From NCBI GenBank assembly GCA_026981635.1, contig JALSIF010000092.1, positions 1 to 23,861 of the forward strand: a stretch of DNA of 23,861 nt, given 5' to 3'. The stretch is from a bacterium. Lineage in GTDB: Bacteria; 4484-113; JALSIF01. Shown here piece by piece: positions 6,445 to 10,839 of the stretch (position 1 is the stretch's first letter; each line of letters starts with the position of its first letter). Position numbers and translations under genes: made by a program. A model generated the notes under the pieces. It did not search any database, was not told the origin of the DNA, and saw only the letters and a list, made by a program, of their open reading frames with translations.

Positions 6445-8712
6445 ATGGTGGGAGGCAAGTGGAAGAGCAGGGCCAGGGCTGTGCCCGCTCTGGTGGTGTT
6501 GGCACTTCTTTCGGCGGGAGTGGTGTTTAGCTCCTGCCCCCAGAGGGCTGGCCGGGTCCCCGGGGAGCGGCGGGTGGTGAAGCTTTCCCAAAGTGAGGAG
6601 CTCCGCCTGCCGGGCTATGAGATCCTGAGCTTCCAGCCCGAGCGACTGCCGGTGCTGATGGGGCTAACCCCGAAAAGGATCAGCCTGATTGCTAAGCCGG
6701 CTGTAAAGCTGTTTGAGATCTATACCGCCGTAATAGGGGAGGAGCCGGCCAGGCCAACCCTGGGAGAGCGGGACATCAAGGTCGCACCCACCAACGGGGG
6801 CGACCAGTACGCCAAAAACGGCTATGCCCTGGACTATGCCCTCTTCATGGAGCGCGGGGGTAAGCAGGGTTCCTACGAGCTTATCCTCCTGCCCATGACC
6901 GGCTTCGGCGAGCCGAGCATCTCCCTTAGGGAGTTCATGGTTCCCGACTACACCATGGGCCAGCACTACCTCATCTCCTACGGGGGGGAATACCTCTTTG
7001 CCCTCTCCTCCATCCCCCTGGATGGTCCGCCCAGTTCAGGTGAGCAGGCCGGTGAGGAAGTGTCGGCAGAGGAAGGGGAAGAAAAAAGTGGCAGGGTGAG
7101 TCCACCAGACACGGACCAGGACCCGCCTGCCCAGTCATCCAGCCAGGGGGAAAATGGGGAGACCCCCCCAGCCCAGCCCGAAGGGGCACCGGAGAAGGGC
7201 GGCCAGACGGTGGGCACATACATACCCGACCGTTTCAGGTTGCTCTACAAGGTGGTCAGGATCAACCGTGATCAGGAGGGCGGGCTGAGCCTTGAGGAGC
7301 TTCGCTCGGTTGAGATAGACCTTCCTCCCGAGGCGGGACTGGGGCTTTTGGCCCAGGCCAGTGCGGCTAAGGACGGGGTGGTGTTGGCCTTCTACCGGGA
7401 GGAGGCCCAGAACTACCAGGTCAAGGGGACGGTGCTTGCCCGGCTGGACCTGGAGGGAAACCTGGAGATCCTTGCCGAAAGCGAGGAGAGCCCCGCTCTG
7501 CTGCTTGCGGGGGAGACCACCGAGAGTGCCCTGCTGATCACTTCGGGAGAGGAAGCAATATCCACTCATCAGAGCCTAGGAGGAAGGGGGGAAGAAAGAG
7601 AGTCAATCTCCAGTCCCAAGGTGAGGATCATGCGTTATGACGATGGAGAGGGGTTGCGGGAGATGGCTGAGCTTCCCTCTCCTAGCGTATCTACCTTGGC
7701 ATATCAGAAGGACCTGTCGCGCATCTTCTATCCCTCGGCTGAGCGGGGGTTGATAGAGCTTGTCTGGCGGGGAGGAAGCTACCGGGAGAGGGACTTTCCC
7801 CACCTCATCACCTATGCCCCCATCTACTGGCATCCCGACTACCGCGCCCTGATCATGGAGCTGGGCAATGCCTATGTGATGTTTCCCGAGCGGGAGCTGG
7901 AGCGCTATGACCGCTTCCTAGCCGAGCGGGCCGAGGTGCGCTGGAACCAGCTCCAGGATCAGCTGAGGGAGATGGGGCTGGCCGAGCTTGAGCGGGACAG
8001 CTATACGGTCAGGGTGGAGGAATGGCGGGTACCGCCGGCCCGCGACTGGGAGAACCTGCTGGTGACGCCCAAGCATCCCCAGGACCCGGGCCAGCTTTTC
8101 AGCCCCGCACGCTTCAGCTTCTATCGGGATGAGGACCGCTTTTTCCGCTTCACAGCCGGCCAGCTGATGGGAGAGCTGCTGGGTGACTTTGTAGGCGGGT
8201 TTGGCGATGGTAGCGAGACCCGCCATGCGGCTGAGCGGCTGATTGGAAGCCTGGCCAAAAGCTTTGGCTTTGAGGGAAAGGATCTAAAGCTGGTCTACTC
8301 TCGGGGCCTGGGTAAGGAGAAGGACCAGCAGCGGCTCTGGTTCTGTCGCATGAGAGAGGTGCAGGGGTTTGAGGTATGTGACCTCAAGGTCTTCATGCTC
8401 TTTGCTCCCCTCTCGGCCAAGCTCTACGAGGTCAAGGTGGAGCCCCTGCCCATCCCCGAGGGGTTCAGAATCCTGCTTGATGAGAAGACCGCCCGGCGCT
8501 ACATGATCCGCTTTGGGGAAAGCTACTTCCACCGGCCCACCAACGTGGAGCTTGAGTGGGTGATGCTGATGGGCCACTACCCCGACTATGACCCGGTGCT
8601 CAAGGTGCCCACTCATCCTGACCTGGATAGGCCCAACATAAGCTGGCACTTTAGGATGGTGGGGGTGGACCGGGACTTCTACATAGACGCCCGCACCGGG
8701 CTGGTCAACTGA
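6445..8712 (+). CDS. Large lipoprotein-like exported protein with possible C-terminal PepSY-like repeats
   Basis: This 755-residue protein is not recognised as a whole. The N-terminus has a basic stretch, a hydrophobic core (about 13-28) and an imperfect lipobox FSSC with Cys31, so it is probably lipid-anchored outside the cytoplasm. Residues 195-257 are a low-complexity E/S/P/Q/G linker. The middle resembles propeller-like beta repeats. Near the C-terminus, a helix (AERLIGSLAKSFGF) followed by strands, and the ending FYIDARTGLVN, resemble PepSY/YcdB-type units, which often act as inhibitors or chaperones of secreted proteins; this is inference. A longer frame starts at 6349, but the ATG at 6445 gives a proper signal. 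The PriA-like gene begins 1 base after its stop, suggesting co-transcription. Confidence 0.6.
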   Translation: MVGGKWKSRARAVPALVVLALLSAGVVFSSCPQRAGRVPGERRVVKLSQSEELRLPGYEILSFQPERLPVLMGLTPKRISLIAKPAVKLFEIYTAVIGEEPARPTLGERDIKVAPTNGGDQYAKNGYALDYALFMERGGKQGSYELILLPMTGFGEPSISLREFMVPDYTMGQHYLISYGGEYLFALSSIPLDGPPSSGEQAGEEVSAEEGEEKSGRVSPPDTDQDPPAQSSSQGENGETPPAQPEGAPEKGGQTVGTYIPDRFRLLYKVVRINRDQEGGLSLEELRSVEIDLPPEAGLGLLAQASAAKDGVVLAFYREEAQNYQVKGTVLARLDLEGNLEILAESEESPALLLAGETTESALLITSGEEAISTHQSLGGRGEERESISSPKVRIMRYDDGEGLREMAELPSPSVSTLAYQKDLSRIFYPSAERGLIELVWRGGSYRERDFPHLITYAPIYWHPDYRALIMELGNAYVMFPERELERYDRFLAERAEVRWNQLQDQLREMGLAELERDSYTVRVEEWRVPPARDWENLLVTPKHPQDPGQLFSPARFSFYRDEDRFFRFTAGQLMGELLGDFVGGFGDGSETRHAAERLIGSLAKSFGFEGKDLKLVYSRGLGKEKDQQRLWFCRMREVQGFEVCDLKVFMLFAPLSAKLYEVKVEPLPIPEGFRILLDEKTARRYMIRFGESYFHRPTNVELEWVMLMGHYPDYDPVLKVPTHPDLDRPNISWHFRMVGVDRDFYIDARTGLVN

Positions 8713-8713
8713 G

Positions 8714-9112
8714 ATGGAGGGGTGGGTGGCAAGCTGCGCCCCCCTCAGCCGCCGCTGCGGTCGGGGGATTTGGGACTACCTCTATCCCCCCTTCCTGGGC
8801 GAGCCCCGGTCGGGCGAGCTGGTGGTGGTGCCCTTCCGTGAACTGGGGCTGTTTCCTGCCCTGGTGGTGGCGGAAAGGCAGGCTCCCTCGCCGGGAAAGG
8901 GCAGGGAGCGCATCCCTCGCCGGCTGGAGCGGGTGGTGGCAAGGCTTGAGCTTAGGTCGGGCCTTGCCAGCCTGGGCAGAAGGCTTCACCTGCTCTTTGA
9001 GCGGCTGGGGCTTCACCCCCTGGAGGGTGCCCAGGTGGTGGGACTGGGGGGAGGAAGGCCCATCATCAGGGAGTTTTTTTTTGCCCCAAGCCCGAGTGGG
9101 CGCTGGGACTGA
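8714..9112 (+). CDS. priA: PriA-like primosomal protein, N-terminal part (before frameshift)
   Basis: This frame encodes the start of a PriA homologue, the protein that reloads the replisome at stalled forks. DYLYPPFLGEPRSGELVVVP matches the N-terminal 3'-DNA-binding domain (usually LDYLVPE...G-x-R-V-x-V-PFG). Continuous reading ends at TGA 9110-9112, giving only 132 residues. Removing one base of phase at the run of nine T's (9074-9082) joins it smoothly to the following frame, as join(8714..9082, 9082..10839), 708 residues in all. The ATG at 8714 has no clear ribosome-binding site; GTG at 8726, with GGAGG five bases upstream, is an alternative and gives a more usual N-terminus. It directly follows the lipoprotein gene. 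Confidence 0.72.
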   Translation: MEGWVASCAPLSRRCGRGIWDYLYPPFLGEPRSGELVVVPFRELGLFPALVVAERQAPSPGKGRERIPRRLERVVARLELRSGLASLGRRLHLLFERLGLHPLEGAQVVGLGGGRPIIREFFFAPSPSGRWD

Positions 9113-9137
9113 TTGACCGGGAGGGGAGGCTCAGTCC
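9045..9137 (+). other. Frameshift site: T9 run with SD-like and hairpin context
   Basis: Nine consecutive T's (9074-9082) contain the -1 slippery pattern T-TTT-TTT in the reading frame of the upstream part. Purine-rich GGGGGGAGGAAGG (about 9046-9058) and AGGGAG (9068-9073) precede it, like the SD-like stimulators known in bacterial -1 frameshifting. Seven bases after the run, GCCC-GAGT-GGGC (9090-9101) can form a small hairpin, and GGACTGA (9106-9112) pairs perfectly with TCAGTCC (9131-9137). The region would allow ribosomal -1 slippage, or RNA polymerase adding one U. A lost T in the assembly would look identical. Confidence 0.5.
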
Positions 9138-10839
9138 GGATGAGCTGGTGTGGCTAAGGAGTTTCCTCGCCCGCCCCCGCCGCCTATCCCTGGCCCAGCT
9201 AATAAAACTCCACGAGCGCGCCTTCCCCGGCGAGGATTTCCGCTTCTCCCGGCTGGTGGAGCTTATGCTTGGCCTTTCCGAGGCGGGGGCGGTGGTCTTC
9301 TACCTTGACCTTGCAGGGAGGGAGGAGCCGCCAGATACTTCTGGTGGGAAAACGGTTTACCTATCCAATGCAACTGTCTCGGGGGGTGCTTTATCTTCCG
9401 CCCTGGAGCGGGTGTGGGCGGAGAGGGAGGTGGAGCTCCTTTCTCCCCATCTTCCCCGGGCGGTGGAGGAGGCGGTGGAGCGGGCCCCAAACGGGATATT
9501 TCTTGTCCCCACCCTGAGCCTCAGGGAGGAGCTTGCCCGGCGGGTAGGTGGTCTTCTGTCATGGGATGAGGTTCTGCCCGCCGGCGAGCGTCGCCGCCTG
9601 GCGGAGGAGCTTGCCCGGCCGGACGGTGCGCCGCTGGCGATTACTCCCCAGGGGCTGGAGATGGTGGCCCTGGCCCACCCTGAGCGAGACCTGGTGGTGC
9701 TGGACGGGGGGCTGGACACCTTCTACATTGAGCAGGAGGCCCACCTGTGGGCAGATCTTGCCGCCCCCTTGCTCTCCCCCGCCAGGCAGGTCTGGGTGGG
9801 CCACCCGGGGCTAAGTGAGGCGCTCTGCTTCCTCGGCGAGGAGCGGGGCGAGGCCATCCCCCGCGCCAGGCTGGTTGACCCGCGGGGAGTTGAGCTTCCC
9901 CCCGGCCAGCTCACCGAGGCAGAGATGCTGGCCGAGGCGGTGGCCCGGGAGGTGGCCTCGGAGGGGGTGACGGTGGTCTTCCACCACCGCTCCATCCGGG
10001 GCAGGTGGCTCGTCTGCATGAGGTGTCTTGCCTACCAGCGCTGTCCGGTCTGTTCCACTCCCCTCAGGCTGCTGGAGGGGGGGCGGGCCTGGTGCCCGGA
10101 GGGGCACGGCACCCACCCCGAGCTGGTCCAGTGCCAGCAGTGTGGTAGCGAGGAGCTGGCCCGGGCGGGCTTTACCCTCACCGACCTGGAGCGGGAGCTG
10201 AGCAGGCGGCTTAGCCTGCCCATCATCAGGGTGGACGCGGGGCACCAGCCGGATCTCTCCTTCCCGCCGGAAAGTTGTCTGGTGCTGGCTGGCCAGGCTC
10301 TCATCTACCAGCCCTGCTGGCGAATGCCGGTCCCCGAGCGGCTTATCATCACCAGCTTTGACGGGGCGCTGCTTTCACCCGAGCAGAGCCTTGCCCACCG
10401 GCTGGACCCCCTCATCAGGCTCACCCGCCGCTTCGCCGCTCCCCTGGAGGAGGTGGTCATCGTCACCCAGTCGGGCGGGCACCCGGCCGCCCTGGCCTGG
10501 GCGGAGGGAGGAGGGCGGCTGGTGGAGTTTATCCGCGGAGAGGCCGAGGTTTCTGCTGAGCTTGGCGGGCCACCCTGGGCGCTCAGGGTTAGGGTTGCGG
10601 CCATCGGGGAGCGTGGCAGGCTTAAGGCCTCCCGCAAGCTTATCCGCCGGGTGGTGAAGGAGCTGGGGGGGATGCCAGCCGGCCGCTCCCGCATCACCAC
10701 CCGCTTCAAGAGCCCCCACCTCTTCCTGAACATCTTTCTGCCCCCTGACCTTGTGGCGGGACGGCTGCTGATGGAGCTGGAGGAGGCTACCCGCGATATG
10801 GGGGTGGTGGTGAGGCTTGCGGCCGACCCCTCCTGGTAG
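9082..10839 (+). CDS. priA: PriA-like primosomal protein, central and C-terminal part, ATPase motifs degenerate
   Basis: Read in the -1 frame from the T run, this gives 586 residues of PriA. GIFLVPTLSL (261-270 of the joined protein) equals the usual VLVPEISL, and the PriA zinc-ribbon pattern is kept: C435-x2-C438, C444-x2-C447, C461-x3-H465, C474-x2-C477, followed by a GTERVEEEL-like FTLTDLERELSRR. The helicase is degenerate: no Walker A lies before VPTLSL, the DEEH box is D331-G-G-L, and the VAGRAGR motif VI is RLTRRFA. This resembles actinobacterial PriA, which lacks ATPase motifs, so a DNA-binding scaffold role is likely. A separate start at GTG 9148 is possible but has no ribosome-binding site. 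It ends 3 bases from the opposing gene. Confidence 0.75.
   Translation, partial: CPKPEWALGLIDREGRLSPDELVWLRSFLARPRRLSLAQLIKLHERAFPGEDFRFSRLVELMLGLSEAGAVVFYLDLAGREEPPDTSGGKTVYLSNATVSGGALSSALERVWAEREVELLSPHLPRAVEEAVERAPNGIFLVPTLSLREELARRVGGLLSWDEVLPAGERRRLAEELARPDGAPLAITPQGLEMVALAHPERDLVVLDGGLDTFYIEQEAHLWADLAAPLLSPARQVWVGHPGLSEALCFLGEERGEAIPRARLVDPRGVELPPGQLTEAEMLAEAVAREVASEGVTVVFHHRSIRGRWLVCMRCLAYQRCPVCSTPLRLLEGGRAWCPEGHGTHPELVQCQQCGSEELARAGFTLTDLERELSRRLSLPIIRVDAGHQPDLSFPPESCLVLAGQALIYQPCWRMPVPERLIITSFDGALLSPEQSLAHRLDPLIRLTRRFAAPLEEVVIVTQSGGHPAALAWAEGGGRLVEFIRGEAEVSAELGGPPWALRVRVAAIGERGRLKASRKLIRRVVKELGGMPAGRSRITTRFKSPHLFLNIFLPPDLVAGRLLMELEEATRDMGVVVRLAADPSW

Follow-up and report, generated by a model that had tools for sequence, protein, structure and literature searches.

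Why does a priA-like gene change reading frame at exactly nine T's, and how could one protein still be made from it? This question is raised by contig JALSIF010000092.1 of the bacterial assembly GCA_026981635.1, analyzed here over positions 1 to 23,861 (23,861 nucleotides, hereafter the window). The first-pass annotation, made from the letters and their open reading frames (ORFs), had proposed either a programmed -1 frameshift or polymerase slippage within this gene. We found that the nine-T run (T9) is conserved, together with the split, in three genera of two families. Relatives supported the proposal, and slippage appeared to be the likelier of its two mechanisms: judging from the sequences compared, T9 probably represents a conserved programmed transcriptional slippage site in priA (probability roughly 0.75).

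The nine T's coincide precisely with the change from frame 0 to frame -1 inside priA (Table 1), just as had been proposed. In frame 0 the run is read as three Phe codons (TTT TTT TTT) before GCC, and the product ends in REFFF-APSPSGRWD ahead of the TGA, so that the predicted unshifted product of 132 residues also stood. The -1 frame re-reads T 9082 and continues as TGC (Cys) CCC AAG up to the TAG at 10837-10839. The site reads ATCATCAGGGAG-TTTTTTTTT-GCCCCAAGCC, and the predicted peptide across the junction is EFFFCPKPEWALGLIDR; a transcript with 10, 7 or 13 U's would keep one open frame across the entire gene. The run had been described as the longest A/T homopolymer seen, and this holds for the whole genome bin (1.745 Mb, 317 contigs, 85% complete), in which ten A/T runs of exactly eight, two of nine and none longer were found. 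Given two T9/A9 runs in 1.745 Mb, the expectation of a sense-strand T9 in a gene of 2.1 kb is ∼0.001. The GC content of the window is 65%, and TTT accounts for 36% of its Phe codons.

The class to which this organism belongs comprises ten genomes in four families. Besides the window's genome (G000), the carriers of the site are G002 and G004, which belong to the family neighbouring that of G000. In G002 (AUK090, contig JAGGVC010000126.1) the run lies at L080:6376-6384 and the site is GAATTCAAGCTG-TTTTTTTTT-GCCCGGGTGGGC, and in G004 it lies at L021:1786-1794 within GAAATCTCGGTG-TTTTTTTTT-GCGCGTCCGG. All three carriers have exactly nine T's at the homologous codon, with G before them and GC after them; the 3' DNA-binding domain (3'BD) is in frame 0 upstream of the run and the remainder in the -1 frame downstream. 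Past the run, conserved residues fall in the -1 frame, and the proteins can be aligned from FFFC and the next helix. The carrier proteins are only 16-31% identical, and therefore the run has persisted while most of the surrounding sequence changed. Even if the three Phe residues are taken as given, the probability of TTT-TTT-TTT in all three genomes is ∼0.001 under the carriers' Phe codon use.

Each of the seven other class members has a single open priA frame, in which A/T runs do not exceed six. Among 345 matching genomes of 385 examined by a three-row profile search, two-piece matches were seen in only the three carriers, a count that is a weak control for distant phyla, where the N-terminal domain drops below threshold. 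In other phyla, the PriA loci that were read directly were mostly long intact ORFs, commonly of 617-865 aa, and most priA genes there lack a run like T9. A contig scan with the C-terminal part of the window protein alone returned no matches, and one with the three-row alignment returned G002 itself and weaker matches in Cupriavidus/Ralstonia. As the class has only ten genomes, no further carriers could be found.

Table 1 Coordinates of the split priA gene in the window
Feature	Position	Strand	Description
priA frame 0	8714..9112	+	132 aa, ATG to TGA; residues 1 to ∼120 are the 3'BD, then FFF and a 9-residue tail
Putative slip site	9074..9082	+	Nine T's, then GC; G002 and G004 have the exact T9-GC at the corresponding position
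priA -1 frame	9082..10839	+	585 aa; winged-helix-like region, Walker-less helicase lobes, cysteine-rich zinc region, C-terminal domain
TGA stop	9110..9112	+	End of unshifted translation, nine codons past the run

Could the split simply reflect a consensus short by one T, with true genes that are intact and contain T10? The first-pass annotation had regarded a missing T as the main alternative, and it is true that both T9/A9 runs of G000 sit at frame transitions of identical direction. However, the two relatives with an exact T9 favour recoding: an identical loss would be needed at one homologous codon in three separate assemblies. Moreover, other runs of eight or nine are correctly in frame, namely A8 within ORFs of 459 and 648 aa in G000, A9 within ORFs of 724 and 723 aa in G002 and A9 within an ORF of 829 aa in G004, and the G004 assembly retains runs of 10 and more. 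Even T10 would need explaining, being a conserved ten-T run in a genome of 65% GC. Assembly error is therefore a very unlikely cause of the split. The G004 gene spans two contigs; their overlap of 27 identical bases (L021:1808-1834 and L034:1-27), beginning 13 nt past the run, is a further point in favour of recoding. The G004 assembly thus breaks just past T9, which could reflect read disagreement at the run.

Change at the DNA level, in which the tract gains or loses T's and turns priA on and off, was also considered. Strand slippage can alter A/T tracts of such length (a point discussed in PMC3711429), but the three consensus genomes share one T9 state, and priA is a housekeeping gene, the sole PriA gene found, and not a surface gene. 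Phase variation of this kind is thus highly improbable.

With regard to mechanism, slippage is associated with at least 8-9 A or T at the frame transition, and T9 is present there in three genomes. The RNA polymerase of E. coli slips on runs of seven T's or more and favours poly(T) (PMC6260861), listed slippage signals include Tn with n>8 (PMC3711429), and insertions become exponentially more frequent as the run lengthens (PMC5574713). That nine T's and not seven are conserved fits slippage, and slippage is further favoured because no Shine-Dalgarno (SD)-like element or hairpin is conserved, an argument also made for slippage in Citrobacter rodentium tssM1 (PMC4256274). In the proposed mechanism, RNA polymerase would slip on T9 and add mostly one extra U in part of the transcripts (U10). 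Such transcripts (those with 7 or 13 U's would also serve) would be read as ...FFF-C... and give a full-length PriA of ∼708 residues, whereas unslipped transcripts would give the 132-residue 3'BD by itself. We infer that slippage happens, that RNA polymerase and not the ribosome is responsible, and that the cell requires full-length PriA, as this is the only PriA-type gene found in the genome.

The same full-length protein could be made from unedited mRNA if the ribosome underwent programmed -1 frameshifting on T_TTT_TTT, the P- and A-site tRNA-Phe slipping one base back. The slippery heptamer noticed in the first-pass annotation indeed lies in the frame 0 register in all three carriers, and dnaX-type frameshifting provides a precedent in a replication gene. 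On the other hand, nine conserved T's exceed the seven needed by the ribosome, and the accessory cues originally cited did not hold up. The SD-like purines are not conserved: no conserved SD-like element is found 10-14 nt upstream. G002 and G004 lack such a sequence, and that of G000 is misplaced: GGGAG directly adjoins the run, which is too near for a -1 stimulator, and a better GGAGG is 19 nt away. Likewise, the two hairpins suggested downstream have no counterpart in folding energy, which was no better than that of dinucleotide shuffles in the three genomes (z between -0.7 and +1.0). Ribosomal frameshifting is our second choice, because its SD and hairpin cues are neither conserved nor stronger than chance, and we consider it rather improbable. 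Several observations nevertheless count against transcriptional slippage: the run also holds T_TTT_TTT in register, which the ribosome could use; only three genomes carry the site; and the zero-frame tail varies in length (9, 7 and ∼42 codons past the run), and therefore the end of the short product is not conserved.

All this presupposes that the gene encodes PriA. Family models match weakly (TIGR00595, E 3.6e-6; PF17764, E 0.13) because PriA of the entire class is divergent. A profile of seven class proteins, however, matched PriA structures (4nl4) across the helicase and zinc parts with E 5e-34. The 3'BD at the N terminus, for which the Pfam model gave only the above E 0.13, was recognized by Foldseek: the best matches of the predicted 132-residue model were E. 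coli/Klebsiella PriA N-terminal structures (probability 1.00, E 1.8e-3). The best fold match of the C-terminal part was also PriA (E 2.2e-18), from a model of low confidence (mean predicted local distance difference test score 61) that served the fold match only. The cysteine-rich zinc region and the helicase-lobe part match PriA, and the invariant Cys columns of the zinc region are retained. Thus, the assignment of both halves to PriA, and of the unshifted product to a DNA-binding domain alone, agreed with these results. It is the only PriA-type gene found in the G000 genome; the remaining PriA-model matches there are longer ORFs that read by sequence as Mfd and UvrB.

Walker A and the DEEH box are absent from the three split genes and were not seen in the other class proteins inspected either, whereas they are present in most PriA of other phyla. 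The window protein is therefore homologous to PriA but probably inactive as a helicase. PriA of the whole class appears to be without these two motifs, as if helicase activity had been lost early, recalling the divergent actinobacterial PriA. Actinobacterial PriA is not known to carry helicase motifs.

A very divergent protein without a Walker A motif might be expected from a decaying gene, that is, an early pseudogene or one split into two separate polypeptides. However, Walker A is also lost in the intact class relatives, both halves stay open over deep divergence, and the exact T9 is retained. In G002 there is no usable start near the junction: no ATG, GTG or TTG occurs in the -1 frame within the first 150 nt past the run, and conserved residues begin at once, so separate initiation would lose conserved sequence. 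Decay or two separate products is thus the least probable of the explanations considered here.

The split lies at the border of the 3'BD and the winged-helix-like part, and therefore the short product corresponds to a complete domain. The simplest view is that slippage would hold the production of full-length PriA at a reduced level. We regard as tentative, and on balance doubtful, a dnaX-like two-product switch kept across families, in which RNA polymerase slippage would set the ratio and the stand-alone 3'BD would cooperate or compete with full-length, helicase-dead PriA at fork structures. The ATG of priA at 8714 lies one base past the TGA (8710-8712) of an upstream gene of 787 aa, which suggests translational coupling of priA to that gene.

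The history of the site was approached by two phylogenies. In a tree based on Mfd and UvrB, G000 was not placed, and a single clade of G000, G002 and G004 was not rejected (approximately unbiased test, p 0.44). In the PriA tree, the three carriers were split from the other two families with support of 96/94. The site may have arisen by one gain, may be an old site with losses, or may reflect convergence.

The one other nine-base run of G000 (L001:1501-1509, corresponding to contig C40:4151-4159) is A9 on the coding strand, which is the minus strand. It lies at a -1 type transition: an ORF of 201 aa with a TIGR02536-like start stops just after the run, and the ORF in the other frame ends in an ACT domain. 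The two halves are similar to distinct known proteins (one to an ethanolamine-utilisation-type end, the other to an ACT domain), and a search for a fused homologue of them found none. In addition, two contigs of another genome, G009 (C5 and C24; L052:1501 and L061:1501), contain A9 with identical flanks and overlapping ORFs in two frames, which resembles an insertion sequence that uses A9 slippage.

Few ordinary chromosomal genes have a conserved slippage site, and here, in an uncultured group, T9 persists in a gene for replication restart despite deep divergence. With T9 and no evident accessory signals, the site is compact and testable. Annotation pipelines would label such a gene a pseudogene or an assembly error; our results suggest that, when a housekeeping gene in a draft genome has a disrupted frame, one should look for a conserved run before discarding the gene. 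This type of recoding is already known; for this gene, literature searches on PriA with slippage or programmed frameshifting found no earlier report. The run of Shigella flexneri mxiE is also T9. In a 2005 survey of bacterial genomes, runs of nine bases and split ORFs were conserved together in six insertion sequence cases and one other gene, and all of those runs were A runs (PMC1088944).

Among known systems, mxiE is similar in that RNA polymerase slips at a homopolymer and thereby fuses two overlapping ORFs (PMC5009743, PMC4256274); the slipped product is the long one, with a reported efficiency of 20-30% (PMC4256274). In contrast, mxiE encodes a plasmid-borne transcription activator and its slippage has been measured, whereas the window gene is a replication gene whose site is known from sequence. 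Citrobacter rodentium tssM1 also has an early stop after a homopolymer, with slippage restoring the full protein and no SD or structure; it differs in its A11 run, its narrow distribution and the demonstrated need for both products (PMC4256274), whereas priA has T9 in two families. The actinobacterial PriA proteins are likewise divergent and smaller (PMC1193525), but a split gene has not been reported for them. Finally, dnaX, which uses A-run slippage in Thermus thermophilus and -1 ribosomal frameshifting in E. coli, is also a replication gene with a homopolymer and a long and a short product, and its two products, like those predicted for priA here, differ by whole domains. The two genes differ in the base of the run (A versus T) and in the direction of the switch, the unshifted product being the long one in dnaX and the short one in priA.
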